This document shows, piece after piece, positions 1-6,240 of a stretch of DNA of 6,240 bases. Below the pieces are notes generated by a model, which was not told where the DNA came from, searched no databases, and was given only the letters and a program-made list of their open reading frames with translations. A program made the position numbers and the translations under genes. How positions within the stretch are numbered: the first letter of the stretch is position 1; each line of letters begins with the position of its first letter. Source of the stretch: a bacterium (GTDB lineage: Archaea > Nanoarchaeota > Nanoarchaeia > Woesearchaeales > UBA10216); contig JAAGZO010000976.1 of the NCBI GenBank assembly GCA_024206195.1, positions 1 to 6,240 on the forward strand, written 5' to 3'.

Positions 1-184
1 AGATTCAGATTTAGGTCCGACATCGCCGATACATACACTCCAATTACCACCAATACAACTTTGCACTCCGAATGAACATCCACCTATATGAGTAGTTCCG
101 CACTGCCTTTCTGCTCCATCTTCACAGCCGCAATCTTCATCAACAGAACCATCACAATCATTATCAATATCATCACAGATCTCA
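1..184. repeat. Direct DNA repeat, copy A (partner at 709-892)
   Basis: Positions 1-99 are identical, base for base, to 709-807. A single change at 100/808 (g/a) and a short divergent patch around 120-137 follow, then another matching run to about 184/892. The offset is 708 bp, which equals two 354-bp double units of the MopE array. This points to recent duplication or gene conversion. Copy A is cut by the window edge. Confidence 0.93.
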
Positions 185-3100
185 TTATCAGGATCTGTCC
201 ATAAACAGATATCCCACCTACCTGTTGTGCAATTCTGTATACCAACAGTACATTGACCTACATCAGTACCGCAGCCAAGAGTTGACCCGTCTGGAGAACA
301 TGAACAATTCTCATCGATCGAACCATCACAATCATTATCTATAGAATCTCCACAAATCTCAAAGTCAGACTCTATACTTCCTGTACATTCTCCCCAACCA
401 TCATCCGAACAAACCTGGACACCATATGAACACATACCTATATTTGATGACCCACACTGCCTTTCTGCTCCATTGTCACAACTGCAATTTTCATCAACAG
501 AACCATCACAATCATTATCAATAGAATCTTCGCAAGATTCTTCCACAGGAACAACCCACTCACATTCACCCCACCCACTTGCTGTGCAGTTCTGTATACC
601 AACAGTACATTGACCCACATCAGTACCACAAGGTATAATCTCTCCTATCGTGCATGTGCAGTTCTCATCTATCGAACCATCACAATCATTATCAATAGAA
701 TCTTCGCAAGATTCAGATTTAGGTCCGACATCGCCGATACATACACTCCAATTACCACCAATACAACTTTGCACTCCGAATGAACATCCACCTATATGAG
801 TAGTTCCACACTGCCTTTCTGCTCCATTGTCACAGCTGCAGTTTTCATCAACAGAACCATCACAATCATTATCAATATCATCACAGATCTCATCAGCTCC
901 AAAATATGTCAGATTGTCATCATCATCACAATCATCACAGAATGTGCATCCTGTTCCATTAAATGTTTCATTTACATGAGTATCATTATCAAGATCAACA
1001 CAATCACTAACACAGTTTAGGATAGTCTCCCCATATGCAGGATCACATGATCCATCATTGTTGCATGCTAAGATCAATACTGATGAGTTGATCCAGGATG
1101 AATTGACTTCACCATCATCAGCCATGCAACTTAGTGTCCAGTTTTCTCCTACTGATGTTTGAGAGCTTGAAACAGTCGATACATATCTCTCTCCACCTTG
1201 TGTGAATGAACCAGATATATCAATAACAGTCAACGAAGCATTAAACCGGCTTGCAACATAAGCAAAATCACCATCAACAACAACTGAGAAAGCACCATCC
1301 AACGAAGATGATGAAAGCGAATCCACCATAAAAATATCAGACTTATTAGACACATCAATAACAGTCAACGAATCATTATCTCCGCTTGCAACATACGCAT
1401 AATCACCATCAACAACAACTGAGTAAGCAACATTCATCGAAGATGATGAAAGAGAATCCACCAGAACAATATCAGACTTATTAGACACATCAATAACAGT
1501 CAACGAATCATTAATGTAGCTTGCAACATAAGCAAAATCACCATCAACAAAAACTGACCAAGCACCACCCAGCGAAGATGATGAAAGATAACCCACCTGA
1601 ACAATATCAGACTTATTAGACACATCAATAACAGTCAACGAATCACTAAGAGCACTTGCAACATAAGCATAATCACCATCAACAAAAACTGATCGAGCAG
1701 CATCCATCGAAGTCGAATTTTCAAGATAATCCACCCGAACAATACTTGATTTATCAGACACATTAATAACAGTCAACGAATCACTATAATAGCTTGCAAC
1801 ATAAGCATAATCACCATCAACAAAAACTGAGTAAGCAGATTCCATCGAAGATGATGAAAGATAACCCACCTGAACAATACTTGATTTATCAGAAATATTA
1901 ATAACAGTCAACGAATCATTATAGTAGCTTGCAACATAAGCAAAATCACCATCAACAAAAACTGAGGCAGCACCATCCATCGAAGATGAATTTGAAAGAG
2001 AATCCACAATAACAATCTCAGACTTATCTGATATATTGATAACAGTCAACGAAGCATTATTCCAGCTTGCAACATACGCATAATCACCATCAACAAAAAC
2101 TGACCGAGCAGCATCCAACGAAGATGATGAAAGCGAACTAACCTGATGAATATCATCTATATCTTGTTTCAATCCAGAACTGTTTAAAACACCATCCTTA
2201 AACCACTGCCAGTAATAAGTCAGGGTGTCACCCTCACCATCAGTTGCATTACAATAACCTGTCAGATTATCCAGGCCATAAGCTGGGATCGGAGAGATCC
2301 TTGATGTTTCCATGACTGGAGGATTGTTTGAACTCAATATCTCCACAACAGTAGAATTCTCCCATGAACTATTATCTTCACCATCATTGGCTTTGCAGCT
2401 TAGTGTCCAGTTGTCTTCTGCTGTCAGATAAGAATCAGGAATAGTTGAAACATTCACCTCAACACCCTGAGTTGTGTTTACATCATAATATCCAGCCTCA
2501 TCCAAAACATCATTCAAGTACCATCTCCAATAATAAGTAAGATTATCACCATCAACATCAGTTGCATTACAATAACCAAGCAAAGTATCATTATCATAAG
2601 CTGGGATCGGAGAGATCCTTGATGTTTCCATGACAGGAGGATTGTTTGGAGGCTCTGCCAAAACAATCAGACCACCAGAACACTCAGTTGTTCCATCTTC
2701 AACCCCATCATTAGGTGTTACGCATGCACTCCACACATCATCGGAAGTTGTTTCCTGTGAGACTATCAGATCTGTCCTGTTATCAGATAAAGCTTTGATC
2801 TGCTCAGCTGATAATGAAATGTTGTATATCTGCACATCATCTATTGTTCCTTTAAAATATCCTGTTGTTTCGCTAGGATTATAGTGCCTTCCTAGCCACA
2901 CATTTCCTGCAACCTGAGGCAGAGGTCCTGAATAGTCTGTGTTTGTATCTTCAAGATCTCCATCAACATATAATCTCATCTCAGAGCCATCATAAGTAGC
3001 AGCAATATAATGCCACTCTCCATCATTAAGATCTCCAGAGTAAGCAGCCTTATACTCCTGGCTGTTATTGATAATCAAAAACTCCCCTCCGTTTATTGTG

Positions 3101-6100
3101 CTTAAAGCATAAGGGACATCTGATTTTTGTGATGGTAATTCTGCGCAAGTACTAGTGCCAGGATCACAATAACCACTTGAACAGTCACCATCAGAATTAC
3201 AAGAATCTCCATTCTGAAGAGGATCAGCAGCTTCAAAAACAATATCAGCAAGTCCATATATGTTATCGGAAGTATACTCCTTAAAATCTGAGTCAAGAAA
3301 ACAATTAGTATCAAAATACTCAATAAACCCATTCTTGATATAAATATCATCACAACAACTCGATGGATATGCAAAACCATTAATAGCATATCCGCCAGCA
3401 CCAGCACCTTGAAGACAAGCGCCCAAATAATAATCTGTGCCTGAATTGATATAGTAATCAGTTATATCAGTACATACCCAATTATTATGTGAAAAAACAA
3501 CAGTTGATGTAAGTTCAGTACGCTCTATATTCCATAGTTTTACTGATCTACCTCCTTCAAACATTCCACAAAGATGAGTTATATAACCATTTGAATTAGG
3601 GCTAAATCTATAACCCATAATACGAGACCAATCCAAAGGTCCAGTCGGATTTGCTGTTGGACAATTCTGCAACTGAGGTGGATCTTTCGCAACAATATAA
3701 CCTCCAGGATATGAGTCGTCAGCCTTGACCCATGCTGAGATTGTTATCTCATCCTTGATATTCAGACTTGGATCATCTTCTACATCAATATAGTCATCAA
3801 CACCATCAAACTCATAAGCTCCTTTCCCATCATGACCTCCAGAAGCATCCCACACAACACCATTGACAGTTCCGTTATTACCCAAACCAGAATAATCTTT
3901 TGCAGTGTGATTGTTAAGGGTTAATTTGACATCATCAATAAACAGTTGGCCTGATGATATAGAGGCTGCAGCAAACCTAAATCTGAAAGTTGAGAACAGG
4001 AAAAGAGGATCATCAGTTGTGTATGTCACCTTGACCCATTCAGAACTGCTTATATTTGTCAGCTTGATCATATAATTATTCCAGTTATTTGGTGGATCAC
4101 GGAACCTGAGATAAGCATTATCTCCATCAGGAACTCCCAGATCCAACAGCCAGAATGAGATTGTGATGCTGTCAGCTGATGATGTATCAATATCAGTAGT
4201 TGTAAGACCCGTACTTGTAGAGTTAGCCCTAGCTGAATATGATCCTGAATGGACAATGCTAGTATTAATATCCCAGTCGTTAGCAGAATTCCATGCTGAG
4301 AAATCACCTGACTCAAATCCATCACCAAAACCAAGAACATTATCAGAGCCTTCAAAAGGCATGTTCAAGACAGCGATTGAACTGCCATCTAAATACCAGT
4401 TTATGATAGGTTTAGTAGTATCAGTGTCAAGATCTGTTATCTGATAGTGCAAAGTAAGGTTTTCAACTGTAAGATTTGTTCCAAGAGTTGAATTAAGGAT
4501 GATATTTTGAACACTTGGAGGACTATTAGAAGGAACTGCAGACAGGATAATCACACTACCATTCTTCCAAGAGCTGTTAACAACCCCATCATCAGCCATG
4601 CAGCTTAATGTCCAGTTTTCCCCTACAGATGTTTGAGAGCTTGAAACAGTTGATACATTAACCTCGACACCTTGCGTGAATGGCTTTGAGATATCAATAA
4701 CAGTCAACGAATCATTATCTCCGCTTGCAACATAAGCATAACCACCATCAACAAAAACTGACCAAGCACTATCCATCGAAGGTGATGAAAGCGAATCCAC
4801 CATAACAATGCGCGACTTATCAGACACATTAATAACAGTCAACGAATCATTAACCGCGCTTGTAACATAAGCATAACCACCATCAACAAAAACTGACGCA
4901 GCACCCTCCATCGAAGGTGATGGAAGAGAATCCTCCAGAACAAGACCAGACTTATAAGACACATTAATCACAGTCAACGAATCACTATATTCGCTTGCAA
5001 CATACGCATAATTACCCTGAACAAAAACTGAGAAAGGACGATCCATCAAAAACCTATCTTTAAGATAATCCACCTGAACAATATCATACTTATTAGACAC
5101 ATCAATAACAGTCAACGAATCACTGATTGCGCCGGCAACATAAGCATAATCACCATCAACAAAAACTGACCGAGCACCATCCATCGAAGTCGAATTTGAA
5201 AGAGAATCCACAATACTAATACTCGACTTATCAGACACATCAATAACAGTCAACGAATCATTATCCCAGCTTGCAACATAAGCAAAATCACCCTGAACAA
5301 AAACTGACACAGCACCATTCAGCGATGAATCTATAAGATAACCCCTCCGAACAATACTCGACTTATCAGACACATCAATAACAGTCAACGAATCACTGTC
5401 TAGGCTTGCAACATAAGCAAAACCACCATCAACAAAAACTGACATAGCACCACCCATCGAAGGTAATGAAAGATAACCCACCTGAACAATATTAGACTTA
5501 TCAGATATATTGATAACAGTCAATGAATCACTGCCTTCGCCTGCAACATACGCATAATCACCATCAACAAAAACTGAGTGAGCACTACTCATCGAAGATG
5601 GATCTGAAAGCGAACTAACCTGCTGAATATTACCTACACTTTGTTTCAATCCAGAACTGTTCAGAACACCATCCCTATACCATTTCCAGTAATAAACAAC
5701 ACCCTCACCATCACCCTCTGTCGCATTACAAAAACCTGTCAGATCATCAATGTCATAAGCTGGTATTGGAGAGATCCTTGATGTTTCCATGACAGGAGCA
5801 AAATTTGAACTCAATATCTCCACAACAGTAGAATTCTTCCAAGAGCTGTTAACAACCCCATCATTAGCTGAACAGCTTAGTGTCCATTCTTCTCCTGCAG
5901 TTGTTTGAGAGCTTGAAACAGACGATACATTAACCTCGACACCTTGAGTGAATGGCTTTGAGATATCAATAACAGTCAACGAATCATTAAACCGGCTTGC
6001 AACATAAGCATAACCACCATCAACAAAAACTGAGGCAGCACCATCCAACGAAGATGATGAAAGATAACCCACCTGAACAATACTTGACTTATTAGACACA

Positions 6101-6240
6101 TTAATAACAACCAACGAATCACTATCCCGGCTTGCAACATAAGCAAAATCACCATCAACAAAAACTGACTGAGCAAAATTCATCGAAGTCGAATCTTGAA
6201 GATAATCCACCCGAACAATATCAGACTTATTAGACACATC
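1..6240 (-). CDS. Giant multidomain surface/secreted protein, internal fragment (Ig-like, LVIVD propeller, LamG, CBM-like, MopE repeats)
   Basis: One reading frame, with codons aligned to window positions 3k to 3k-2 on the minus strand, is open for all 2080 codons. I translated it line by line and met no stop. Every segment reads as recognisable domain sequence, so this is real coding DNA without a visible frameshift. Start and stop lie outside the window, so signal peptide, membrane anchor and true length are unknown. The order is propeller (residues 1-94), Ig half (95-146), Ig/propeller/Ig (147-572), Ig/LamG/Ig with nested inserts (573-1195), intact Ig (1196-1304), Ig/propeller/Ig (1305-1720), Cys/Asp linker (1721-1780), and MopE repeats (1781-2080). 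Abundant N-x-S/T sequons, paired Cys and Asp-rich turns indicate an extracytoplasmic location. The likely role is adhesion or ligand binding at the cell surface; this is inferred from the domains, and no catalytic motif was seen. No gene symbol is justified. Confidence 0.97.
709..892. repeat. Direct DNA repeat, copy B (partner at 1-184)
   Basis: This is the second copy of the near-identical segment, covering the end of MopE unit 1's core and its Cys-rich tail. It is coding on the minus strand in the same frame as copy A. An intervening unit of the same subtype (around 400-520) is clearly more diverged than these two are from each other. Confidence 0.93.
901..1080 (-). other. Cys/Asp-rich linker with a degenerate calcium-type motif
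   Basis: Residues 1721-1780 contain ACNNDGSCDPAYGETILNCV, SDCVDLDNDTHVNETF, then CTFCDDCDDDDNLTYFGADE. The first part resembles the 'C.DG.CD...GE....C..DC' disulfide turn common in archaeal surface proteins. The second resembles a 'DxDxDG...DC.D.D....GA.E.CD' lead-in to MopE-type repeats. The Gly of the expected Asp-x-Asp-x-Asp-Gly loop is replaced by Thr (DLDNDTH), so the first metal site may be weakened. Confidence 0.7.
1081..1212 (-). other. Ig-like module 5, C-terminal half
   Basis: Residues 1677-1720 read GSFTQGGERYVSTVSSSQTS, then VGENWTLSCMADDGEVNSSWINSS. The module resumes at 'FTQG' directly after propeller 3. The first strand has drifted (GGERYVST in place of GVEVNVST), while the Trp/Cys/DDG core is intact. 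It is followed by the Cys/Asp-rich linker. Confidence 0.8.
1213..2163 (-). repeat. LVIVD-type beta-propeller 3, complete with seven repeats, inserted in Ig-like module 5
   Basis: Residues 1360-1676 again hold exactly seven 'SV(F/V)VDGD(Y/F)AYVAS' cores, with spacing of 135 bp or 138 bp. The segment starts with an outer-strand-like IHQVSSLSSSS and ends 'ASLTVIDIS', as in propeller 2. The last two blades have SVVVDGD instead of SVFVDGD, possibly because one copied the other. The blades differ mainly at the residue before 'SVFV' and at the two residues after 'VAS', with lesser variation in the outer strand. Function is unknown; ligand binding on one face is inferred. Confidence 0.88.
2164..2328 (-). 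other. Ig-like module 5, N-terminal half
   Basis: Residues 1305-1359 read NNPPVMETSRISPIPAYGLD, NLTGYCNATDGEGDT and LTYYWQWFKDGVLNSSGLKQD. They match module 2 closely and lead into propeller 3. A stretch of about 40 bp (near 2281-2320) is almost identical to 2599-2640 at the start of module 4, which shows recent duplication at the DNA level. Confidence 0.82.
2329..2655 (-). other. Ig-like module 4, uninterrupted
   Basis: Residues 1196-1304 carry the full module: PVMETSRISPIPAYDNDTL, LGYCNATDVDGDNLTYYWRW, YLNDVLDEAGYYDVNTTQGV, EVNVSTIPDSYLTAEDNWTL, SCKANDGEDNSSWENSTVV. It is about 105 residues with a Cys in each half, as expected of an Ig-fold disulfide. Only six residues (YYDVNT) separate the 'EAG' hairpin from the 'TQGVEVNVST' strand. 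In modules 2 and 5 that place holds a propeller of about 318 residues, so this copy defines the insertion site. Confidence 0.82.
2656..2787 (-). other. Ig-like module 3, C-terminal half
   Basis: Residues 1152-1195 read DNRTDLIVSQETTSDDVWSA, then CVTPNDGVEDGTTECSGGLIVLA. The Trp...Cys pair followed by a 'NDG' turn corresponds to 'NWTLSC.A.DG' in the other Ig-like modules. It resumes the module that began at 4524 after about 520 residues of inserted LamG and other domains. A second Cys (TEC) could pair with the first. Confidence 0.72.
2788..3120 (-). other. LamG/concanavalin-type domain, C-terminal part
   Basis: Residues 1041-1151 read DVPYALSTINGGEFLIIN, DLNDGEWHYIAATYDGSEMR, LYVDGDLEDT, GNVWLGRHYN and FKGTIDDVQIYNISLSAEQI. 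'W.YIA.TYDG....LYVDG' and 'F.G.IDDV.IYN..LSA.QI' are the best-known LamG signatures, so the call is firm. Together with 3682-3900 and the opening strand near 4350 it makes one complete domain. The domain is interrupted twice and is itself set in an Ig-like module. Confidence 0.92.
3139..3201 (-). other. Short four-cysteine knot between the DUF4082-like insert and LamG
   Basis: Residues 1014-1034 show Cys-x5-Cys-x4-Cys-x6-Cys within CNSDGDCSSGYC and DPGTSTCAE. This is a compact disulfide-bonded turn of the kind common in archaeal and bacterial surface proteins. It probably rigidifies the return point where the inserted domain rejoins LamG. Confidence 0.65.
3229..3630 (-). other. DUF4082-like beta domain inserted into LamG
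   Basis: Residues 871-1004 include RIMGYRFSPNSNGYITHLCG, RSVKLWNIERTELTS, WVCTDITDYYINSGTDYYLG, a Gly/Ala-rich turn and a closing YGLADIVFEA strand. The series 'GYRF...I..LCG.F....V.LW.....L....F.....W.C.DI.....GT.YY' resembles DUF4082-type jelly-roll modules of surface proteins. Several Cys residues (LCG, VCT, ACL, a CC pair, NC) suggest disulfides. The assignment is from memory of the pattern. The position inside LamG is clear, because LamG strands resume at 3120. Confidence 0.6.
3682..3900 (-). other. LamG/concanavalin-type domain, first major part
   Basis: Residues 781-853 read KDYSGLGNNGTVNGVVWDAS, then GGHDGKGAYEFDGVDDYIDV, and end ITISAWVKADDSYPGGYIVAKD. 'GKGAYEFDGVDDYI' and 'ITISAWVK' are hallmark strands of LamG_3/concanavalin A-like domains. 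The usual next strand, '.YAL..NGG.F', does not follow here but appears 187 residues later at 3120. LamG domains bind glycans or proteins on extracellular surfaces. Confidence 0.88.
3913..4320 (-). other. Carbohydrate-binding-like jelly-roll module inserted near the start of LamG
   Basis: Residues 641-776 (136 residues) begin GFESGDFSAWNSANDWDINT and continue with HSGSYSARANS, ITISFWLLDLG, AYLRFRD, SSEWVKVTYT and FRFRFAAASI, ending QLFIDDVKLTL. The opening 'GFESGDF..W', the 'SGSYSAR' strand and the closing 'IDDV.L' strand are typical of CBM4_9-type and related jelly-roll ligand-binding modules, and the length fits. It sits between the LamG opening strand (LNMPFEGSDN) and the usual continuation (HTAKDYSGLGNNGTV). 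The exact family would need a profile search. Confidence 0.7.
4345..4524 (-). other. Ig-like module 3, N-terminal half, leading into LamG
   Basis: Residues 573-632 read SPPSVQNIILNSTLGTNLTV, then ENLTLHYQITDLDTDTTKPIINWYLDGSSIAVLNMPFEG. 'INWYLDG' is the equivalent of 'YYW.WY.DG' in modules 2, 4 and 5. 'LNMPFEG' is the typical opening strand of an archaeal LamG/concanavalin-type domain, so the LamG domain begins inside this Ig-like module. The remaining Ig strands appear at 2656-2787. This subfamily of Ig-like module is more divergent than the propeller-bearing ones. Confidence 0.72.
4525..4686 (-). other. Ig-like module 2, C-terminal half
   Basis: Residues 519-572 read KPFTQGVEVNVSTVSSSQ, then TSVGENWTLSCMADDGVVNSSWKNGSVIIL. 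They pick up the Ig pattern at the 'TQGVEVNVST' strand, with the Trp/Cys pair and 'DDG' turn intact. The junction with propeller 2 has the same sequence as the propeller 1 / Ig-1 junction exactly 1272 bp away, so Ig plus propeller was duplicated as a unit of 424 codons. Confidence 0.82.
4687..5640 (-). repeat. LVIVD-type beta-propeller 2, complete with seven repeats, inserted in Ig-like module 2
   Basis: Residues 201-518 contain exactly seven copies of the 'SVFV(D/Q)G(D/G/N)(Y/F)AYVA' core, mostly at 135-bp spacing. The segment opens with only an outer-strand sequence (IQQVSSLSDPSS) and closes with inner strands ending 'DSLTVIDIS'. This is the layout expected when the first outer strand completes the last blade (velcro closure). 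Two blades carry Gln-Gly instead of Asp-Gly at the turn, three carry Gly-Gly, and the fifth is the most divergent (KDRFLMDRPFSVFVQGNYAY). Outside a few fixed variable positions the blades are nearly identical, implying recent amplification or homogenisation. Binding of a protein or glycan ligand is an inference from the fold. Confidence 0.88.
5641..5802 (-). other. Ig-like module 2, N-terminal half
   Basis: Residues 147-200 read APVMETSRISPIPAYD...LTGFCNATEGDGEG, then VVYYWKWYRDGVLNSSG. The 'CNAT.GDG' turn, the 'YYW.W' strand and the 'DGVLNSSG' hairpin match the first half of the intact module at 2329-2655. The chain then passes straight into propeller 2 instead of continuing to the 'TQGVEVNVST' strand, which appears only after the propeller at 4686. 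The two halves together are read as one split domain. Confidence 0.82.
5803..5958 (-). other. Ig-like module 1, C-terminal half
   Basis: Residues 95-146 read FTQGVEVNVSSV...EEWTLSCSANDGVVNSSWKNSTVVEI. The Trp-Thr-Leu-Ser-Cys strand, the 'ANDG' turn and the closing 'SSW.NST' strand match the second half of the intact module at 2329-2655. The first half presumably lies beyond the window, on the other side of propeller 1. Three N-x-S/T sequons are visible. This is probably a stalk module. Confidence 0.8.
5959..6240 (-). repeat. LVIVD-type beta-propeller 1, last two blades (partial)
   Basis: Residues 1-94 hold two full repeats of the form x-SVFVDGD-(Y/F)AYVAS-xx-DSL(T/V)VI-(D/N)VS, preceded by the tail of another (DVSNKSDIVRVDYL). 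The repeat length is about 45 residues (135 bp). The segment ends at 'DSLTVIDISKP', exactly as propeller 2 does, so these are most likely blades 6 and 7 of a seven-bladed propeller whose first five lie beyond the high-coordinate edge. LVIVD repeats are a known family of propeller blades found in secreted proteins of bacteria and archaea. The family is named here by motif recognition, not by a search. Confidence 0.85.

Follow-up and report, generated by a model that had tools for sequence, protein, structure and literature searches.

The window analysed here, a 6,240-nucleotide stretch of contig JAAGZO010000976.1, carries part of one gene. Its minus strand is a single stop-free open reading frame (ORF; 1..6240) of 2,080 codons, which runs off both ends. 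The gene, probably from a DPANN (Nanoarchaeota-type) archaeon, would encode a very large, predicted cell-surface protein with several seven-bladed LVIVD propellers interspersed among Ig-like, LamG and MopE modules. In a Pfam scan of the 2,080-residue frame at E 0.001, LVIVD, Laminin_G_3, MopE, Lactonase and Laminin_G_2 were detected. The LVIVD (PF08309) profile matched in 13 tandem stretches with 278.6 bits, against a curated cut-off of 20.2, and a Lactonase-propeller profile also matched. No WD40 profile match was detected in the frame at this threshold. Likewise, no NACHT/STAND or effector domain was matched by Pfam in the 2,080 residues of the protein, which is cut at both ends. A motif scan found 16 blades, namely two in propeller 1 and seven each in propellers 2 and 3, with a spacing of 45-46 residues inside a propeller.

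An earlier note on this DNA had described the blades as a nearly constant frame interrupted by one variable residue (x1) and a variable pair (x2x3). Our rescan matched this description letter for letter in all 16 blades. The x1 residues are QA in propeller 1, HMVRFAW in propeller 2 and RAYRWYF in propeller 3; in the same order, x2x3 reads RD, RF; EG, LD, WD, AI, EY, AV, GD; and WN, YY, YY, AL, YI, GD, RF. All 16 triplets are distinct. With columns numbered from x1, the entropies of x1, x2 and x3 were 3.03, 2.73 and 2.73 bits, and those of the remaining columns from -1 to +25 lay between 0 and 1.12 bits. The same three sites ranked as the top three of 31 columns (-5 to +25) in codon diversity. 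The weaker variable site in the outer strand (R, Q, L, M, I), also pointed out previously, appeared in both the motif scan and the entropy profile. Frame identity among the window blades was 0.84, and many frame codons were the same in 16/16 blades, silent base included (TCA at +1, GTT at +2, GGT at +6, TAT at +10 and TTG at +19). The mean pairwise nucleotide difference over the 16 blades was 0.106 for the frame and 0.654 for x, and the two were correlated with r = -0.14. Blades 1.7 and 2.7 differ at 2/84 frame bases and at 7/9 x bases.

A comparison of replacement and silent rates between blades, as had been proposed, showed that x residues are replaced far more often than the frame changes silently. 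By the Nei-Gojobori method, the proportion of nonsynonymous differences (pN) at x was 0.687 in the window; in the frame, the proportion of synonymous differences (pS) was 0.096 and pN was 0.084. The ratio pN(x)/pS(frame) was 7.1, with a bootstrap over blades of 4.9-13.1; the blade pairs are mutually dependent, and this ratio should be read as an indication and not as a strict dN/dS. Among codon pairs encoding the same residue, a silent difference was found in 183/2,326 frame pairs and in 14/34 x pairs. Two repeat families of the gene labelled Ig-like and a third one, MopE, served as the internal control. They gave pN/pS values of 0.38 (the four-copy Ig-like family), 0.52 and 0.58 at pS 0.24-0.57. 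Because silent differences in the propeller frames (1219-2148 and 4693-5625) are far fewer than in the Ig-like and MopE repeats, we regard the propellers as far more homogenised at silent sites. This suggests a recent amplification or gene conversion confined to the propellers. Assembly errors in the repeat-rich contig may contribute; the same pattern is present in independent relatives. The coordinates of all features are collected in Table 1.

Table 1. Features of the window. Blade coordinates run from the x1 codon (top 3 nucleotides) to the x2x3 codons (bottom 6 nucleotides). "Ig-like" is our own label for repeats without a Pfam match.
Feature	Position	Strand	Basis
LVIVD propeller 1, C-terminal part, two visible blades; contig end cuts the rest	5962..6240	-	ORF, Pfam, motif scan
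LVIVD propeller 2, seven four-stranded blades, residues about 206-516	4693..5625	-	Pfam, motif scan, AF2 model
LVIVD propeller 3, seven four-stranded blades, residues about 1365-1674	1219..2148	-	
Blade 1.6, Q..RD	6124..6171	-	motif scan, codons
Blade 1.7, A..RF	5989..6036	-	motif scan, codons
Blade 2.1, H..EG	5533..5580	-	motif scan, codons
Blade 2.2, M..LD	5398..5445	-	motif scan, codons
Blade 2.3, V..WD	5263..5310	-	motif scan, codons
Blade 2.4, R..AI	5125..5172	-	motif scan, codons
Blade 2.5, F..EY	4987..5034	-	motif scan, codons
Blade 2.6, A..AV	4852..4899	-	motif scan, codons
Blade 2.7, W..GD	4717..4764	-	motif scan, codons
Blade 3.1, R..WN	2059..2106	-	motif scan, codons
Blade 3.2, A..YY	1921..1968	-	motif scan, codons
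Blade 3.3, Y..YY	1786..1833	-	motif scan, codons
Blade 3.4, R..AL	1648..1695	-	motif scan, codons
Blade 3.5, W..YI	1513..1560	-	motif scan, codons
Blade 3.6, Y..GD	1378..1425	-	motif scan, codons
Blade 3.7, F..RF	1243..1290	-	motif scan, codons
Ig-like repeat copy 1, after propeller 1, residue 99	5833..5946	-	repeat comparison
Ig-like repeat copy 2, after propeller 2, residue 523	4561..4674	-	repeat comparison
Ig-like repeat copy 3, residue 1258	2356..2469	-	repeat comparison
Ig-like repeat copy 4, after propeller 3, residue 1681	1087..1200	-	repeat comparison
Laminin_G_3 (ConA-like), C-terminal half	2794..3081	-	residues 1054-1149 match profile 58-151 of 151
MopE-type putative metal-binding repeats, DNDCDGS motif x5	1..933	-	Pfam, repeat comparison

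Propellers 2 and 3 were modelled whole with AlphaFold2 (AF2), a step that had been suggested for this protein. Both gave closed seven-bladed rings of four-stranded blades, with predicted local distance difference test (pLDDT) scores of 95.1 and 94.5, respectively, and the predicted template modelling (pTM) score of propeller 2 was 0.92. In the propeller 3 model, x1 occupies the second position of strand a, and the b-c loop holds x2x3. The strand order in both models places x1 and x2x3 on one face, as predicted by the earlier note. The d-a loop, which lies on the x side of the propeller, holds a variable site not mentioned before, -2/-3 (2.08 and 1.95 bits); directly before x1 this loop had pN 0.27 and pS 0.03. 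In WD40 propellers, the top-face hotspots R1-2, R1 and D-1 lie at the start of strand a and the end of strand b (PMC3419727). We infer that the x face is the LVIVD counterpart of these hotspots.

The same analysis was extended to relatives. Two protein searches (7,976 and 7,979 candidates scored) listed the best 120 of 481 and the best 120 of 162 matches, and the 98 of these 240 proteins with at least six blades were kept. A genome scan of named archaea and bacteria, of which the best 80 of 181 loci were kept, and two viral scans, which added 2 and 7 loci, were also performed. From 89 loci plus the window, 44 arrays (43 and the window) with at least seven blades of at least 27/35 columns were drawn; several share a genome and are not independent. 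Columns -1 to +25 (27 columns) were ranked, leaving out -2. The four most variable columns included x1 in 43/44 arrays, x3 in 37/44 and x2 in 36/44; the next most frequent were +1 (12 arrays) and +17 (11 arrays). Position -2, outside the ranking, was fourth in mean entropy. Furthermore, pN(x) exceeded pN(frame) in 44/44 arrays and pS(frame) in 39/44. Thus, a conserved frame with variable x is the rule for repetitive LVIVD arrays, whether archaeal, bacterial or from viral contigs.

Of the named relatives among the matches listed, those from Nanoarchaeota reached the highest identity (P0069, 51%; P0184, 52% over a third of the query). No relative was detected in the first genome scan, which was queried with the window's own propellers; the exact frame pattern had 0 matches in viral_contigs, and a protein-level search of named phages at E 1e-5 gave no match. 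A protein-level plasmid search matched three records (best E 5e-10). Under strict E-value limits, outside which weaker relatives fall, the occurrence of such arrays was patchy: 12/24 genomes of one Lokiarchaeal genus, 2/180 of one order, and 6/28, 3/6 and 6/19 genomes of three further groups, the last being one Lokiarchaeal genus. One Lokiarchaeal LVIVD array is broken by an in-frame TAG (G028:C135, 3476-3574) and is possibly a decaying copy.

The codon positions were then compared over the 44 arrays. In the frame, base 3 was the most variable in 44/44 arrays. At x, bases 1 and 2 varied more than base 3 in 33/44 arrays (20/22 young and 13/22 older arrays), and the third base kept an array-specific bias. 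T-ending codons made up 32/35 x codons in the Lokiarchaeal array L028 (5484-7859; expected 14.5) and 32/36 in L036 (5073-8240; expected 17.7); the wobble P values are uncorrected for 44 x 16 tests, and the L028, L036 and L004 values are low enough to withstand such a correction. The wobble bias of L028 and L036 is, to judge from the codons, a frozen base at sites that were recently diversified. In the window, the third bases of x1 were G 8, C 7, A 1 and T 0, so that G or C occurred in 15/16 codons (expected 7.1, P 5e-7, in a test picked after viewing the codons). Such a biased wobble base is what fast amino-acid replacement on newly copied blades would leave.

A biased third base, with x codons resembling NNT or NNS sets, is also what might be seen if targeted mutagenesis by a diversity-generating retroelement or a similar system wrote the x codons. 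The tight confinement of the changes fits this explanation, and a weak hint towards it is the excess of variation at frame positions with majority A (9/15 vs 21/69 others, Fisher P 0.04), although 6/15 of the majority-A positions are invariant in the 16 blades and 21/69 non-A positions vary. The third bases of window x1, neither fixed nor random, are unlike the product of one A-mutated template. Neither a reverse transcriptase nor a template repeat was found within the visible 6.2 kb, and the excess at bases 1 and 2 fades with array age, as selection predicts. We consider targeted mutagenesis highly improbable.

The residues chosen at x are also biased. Over the 44 arrays, Tyr, Arg and Trp made up 14.2, 9.7 and 5.0% of x residues; the corresponding values are 4.8, 2.1 and 1.2% outside the blades and 9.1, 8.5 and 2.1% in random codons. 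Cys occurred at 0.5%, where random codons predict 5.4%. The x residues had been noted as rich in aromatic residues and Arg, and this was confirmed: Tyr and Trp are enriched, and the excess of Arg is slight because random codons already account for most of it.

For pair comparison, 94 arrays with at least five blades were taken from 132 loci, and 14 pairs had a flank identity of at least 68% over 80 residues. The locus L018 (Bacteroidia, 9152-13982) contains two adjacent paralogues, the flanks of which are 95% identical over 137 residues; the C-terminal flanks are nearly the same (1/101 residues differ). Between these paralogues, 21/25 x residues and 119/437 frame residues differ (x 30/38 in another labelling). 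In contrast, the first L018 gene and its relative L115 from another species of the genus differ at 2/31 x residues and 65/445 frame residues. The difference at x between the paralogue and the orthologue comparison was significant (Fisher P = 1.9e-9). Codon rates taken over 10 gap-free blades gave x pN 0.028 at pS 0.514 between L018 and L115; within either gene, x pN was about 0.68. The second L018 gene (ORF2) and L115 differ at 21/24 x residues. In the Lokiarchaeal pair L053/L063, 3/25 x residues differ, and in the L082 pair 1/4 comparable x residues differs. In the remaining eight pairs (L008/L011 in one genome and seven Lokiarchaeal pairs), 62-90% of x residues differ. Species-wide fixed silent differences between L018 and L115, sought as a sign of concerted evolution, were found at 0/111 sites; therefore, homogenisation is not shown for this pair.

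In two of the three likely orthologue pairs, x is as conserved as the frame. The x sites thus look like specificity residues, which were diversified at duplication and afterwards kept, and the Lokiarchaeal pairs leave room for continued change in some lineages. The word "hypervariable", used in the earlier note, holds between blades and between paralogues and not necessarily over time. These pairs also bear on the idea that x differences are only a folding aid, preventing register slips or domain swapping of near-identical repeats. Very similar blades could indeed mis-pair. However, such a role would not focus the change on three positions, nor would it preserve x in a relative from another species and yet let the neighbouring paralogue, which has the same frame, differ; we give this idea hardly any credence.

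We consider it likely that the LVIVD blade faces are ligand-contact surfaces, which were diversified at duplication and then kept by purifying selection. According to this proposal, x1, x2x3 and the weaker site two residues before x1 would together make up the face that touches the ligand, with about 21 residues in each propeller. New faces would arise by amplification of blades or genes followed by rapid amino-acid replacement, and a working face would subsequently be held by purifying selection. The diversified ligand-recognition surface proposed in the earlier note is in keeping with the location of the main variable sites on one face, with amino-acid replacement well in excess of silent change in the frame and with the richness in aromatic residues and Arg. 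The pattern is family-wide, however, and not special to the window protein.

Several observations weigh against this proposal. The face of the x sites was assigned by strand order. On the opposite side by strand order, +29 in the c-d loop is also variable (2.48 bits; 2.19 bits over 13 blades, leaving out the three terminal ones), pN reaches 0.138 at pS 0 in the a-b turn, and 0.253 at pS 0.293 in the c-d loop from +24 to +26. Therefore, the strongest variation, not all of it, lies on one face. The x sites are clearly the strongest variable positions, and the other side of the propeller is not silent. As for the rates, frame pS is low because the blades are homogenised, and pN/pS of the frame itself is 0.88. 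Since silent differences are common at x in the window (pS 0.55), part of the variation there may come from locally more frequent mutation or from sites that escape gene conversion. In older arrays, pN(x) and pS(frame) are nearly equal, and their ratio is below 1 in 5/44 arrays, where frame pS is at least 0.61. Tested by themselves, neither x2 nor x3 of the window showed a significant wobble bias (P 0.05 and 0.18). Regarding orthologues, the conservation of x comes from two pairs; the third, the Methanogenium pair L006/L007, differs at 9/21 x residues. Pooling the three pairs gave 14/77 for x and 180/1,220 for the frame (P 0.41), and x was not significantly more conserved than the frame between L018 and L115 (P 0.29). 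In the seven Lokiarchaeal pairs, the orthology of which is unclear, 62-84% of x residues differ.

Some of these observations would be expected from neutral drift, in which x residues are merely exposed and unconstrained, and purifying selection and gene conversion maintain the scaffold around them. The rates in old arrays and the variable +29 loop residue on the other side agree with it, as does the placement of x1 near the end of a strand and of x2x3 in a loop. It does not account for the window and other young arrays, in which pN(x) is several-fold above pS(frame), for the excess of base 1 and 2 over base 3 variation in 20/22 young arrays, nor for the enrichment of Trp and Tyr and the depletion of Cys relative to random codons. 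The Ig-like and MopE repeat families of the gene stay at pN/pS 0.38-0.58, and x was kept between L018 and L115 at pN/pS of about 0.05. Drift does not explain why x can match the scaffold in conservation when orthologues are compared, and we regard it as very unlikely.

Next, the location of the proteins was considered. The proteins of L028, L036 and L039 have an N-terminal hydrophobic segment and a C-terminal membrane-like segment, and that of L004 has a C-terminal membrane-like segment with a basic tail (all by eye). In L018, a Por_Secre_tail sorting domain was matched by Pfam. A further point against the proposal is that neither a signal peptide nor an anchor can be seen in the window protein, both ends being cut; its export is therefore deduced from the relatives. 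Two contigs of prokaryotic viruses, L084 and L085, encode LVIVD propellers close to virion genes. In L084 (8792-11821), an LVIVD protein with a tail-protein match sits between genes matching terminase and portal. In L085 (9818-11767), the LVIVD protein precedes a gene matching virion structural families; the genes before it read as portal and capsid by eye and have no PHROGs match. The terminase frame of L084 (1,438 residues) has endonuclease- and helicase-like matches, suggesting inteins. LVIVD arrays were also found in P0028, P0036, P0061, P0081, P0083 and P0084, several of them together with PF13884, and one protein of the PF13884 group, from a Patescibacteria bacterium, is named "tail fiber domain-containing protein". 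The PF13884-associated LVIVD proteins may be adhesins or virion proteins.

Surface exposure of the relatives, their patchy occurrence at strict cut-offs (2/180 genomes of one order and 6/19 of a Lokiarchaeal genus) and the diversifying signal at x would also suit antigenic variation, in which the face is a target of phages, predators or host defences and changes to escape them. The several Lokiarchaeal pairs in which most x residues differ point the same way. Constant antigenic change is nevertheless a poor fit, because two of the three likely orthologue pairs conserve x as well as the scaffold. Moreover, propellers of this kind are themselves encoded on viral contigs, close to virion genes, and the residue types at x resemble those of binding surfaces. 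We judge antigenic variation to be unlikely. For the ligand-contact surface, the likeliest use would be adhesion to other cells or to surface polymers, with a protein, a glycan or a cell surface as candidate ligands.

A similar architecture is known for WD40 propellers. In the highly repetitive WD40 repeats of bacteria and fungi, the blades are reported to be conserved except at some sites such as the predicted hotspots (PMC5587647; a solved structure is PDB 2ymu). The LVIVD arrays resemble them in having similar blades with diversity at top-face hotspots. They differ in blade family, and the LVIVD relatives are predicted to be extracellular or in virions. With WD40 as the comparison system, the LVIVD case was additionally examined at the codon level and against orthologues and paralogues. 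The earlier note had also likened the pattern to fungal HET-type NLRs, and the literature supports this. In the HNWD NLRs of Podospora anserina (het-d, het-e and het-r), the repeats evolve in concert and four codons per repeat on the interaction surface are positively selected (PMC2873952, PMC12222747). The window shares with HNWD the diversified codons within homogenised repeats, and homogenisation has lowered the frame pS that enters its pN(x)/pS(frame) of 7.1. However, HNWD proteins are intracellular fungal STAND receptors with an effector domain, WD40 repeats and known allele-level variation. No effector domain is visible in the window protein, and x is conserved in some LVIVD orthologues.

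The LVIVD repeat was defined in 2004 from archaeal and bacterial cell-surface proteins (PMC2447325). The window blades are members of this family (PF08309); in its accessible part, that paper describes the repeat, with no mention of a variable face on a constant scaffold. A model of LVIVD followed in 2021 (PMC8078820). Recently amplified propellers have been reported in all major lineages, Lactonase-like included, some perhaps serving innate immunity or self-recognition (PMC9218822). A variable LVIVD face is not described in the accessible parts of PMC9218822, PMC10907252, PMC11417379 and PMC6851277. The earlier note knew of no description of such a surface for LVIVD propellers in such proteins, and none appeared among the papers listed by full-text searches, which cover literature mostly outside subscription journals; the same idea is in print for WD40.

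Other features of the window and its relatives were as follows. The LamG domain is apparently split: Pfam matches the second half (residues 1054-1149), and a plausible first half lies near residues 815-870 by eye. About 180 residues, partly Cys-rich, are inserted between the halves (window 3082-3633, minus strand, residues about 870-1053). Megablast against plasmids found no near-identical DNA for the window, and neither an Rfam match at the gathering score nor a tRNA was detected in it. Upstream of a Pacearchaeotal LVIVD gene, L003 (4515-5970) carries a pair that we take to resemble an AbiEi/AbiEii toxin-antitoxin system; part of it reads N.

Transcription activator-like (TAL) effectors offer a further comparison. 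They consist of nearly invariant tandem repeats, in which a variable pair of residues sets the specificity, and form an alpha solenoid that reads DNA. Unlike TAL effectors, LVIVD blades come without evidence of a code of one blade for one unit. A broader and rather unlikely possibility is that LVIVD propellers are a widespread programmable scaffold in uncultured archaea, CPR bacteria, Bacteroidetes and phages. In this case, the triplet of each blade would read a piece of the ligand. Faces would originate, under intense selection, when blades or genes are duplicated and would stay fixed afterwards, and the list of triplets would be a specificity code for cell-cell or phage-host recognition. To our knowledge, partner choice in DPANN archaea, CPR bacteria and many phages is mostly unknown. 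Apart from this broader possibility, a surface scaffold whose specificity residues can be read from the sequence, variable between paralogues and conserved in some orthologues, would make a class of unannotated giant proteins testable receptors. The present pattern also carries the principle of a conserved scaffold with a variable face from WD40 to a second propeller family, probably outside the cell.

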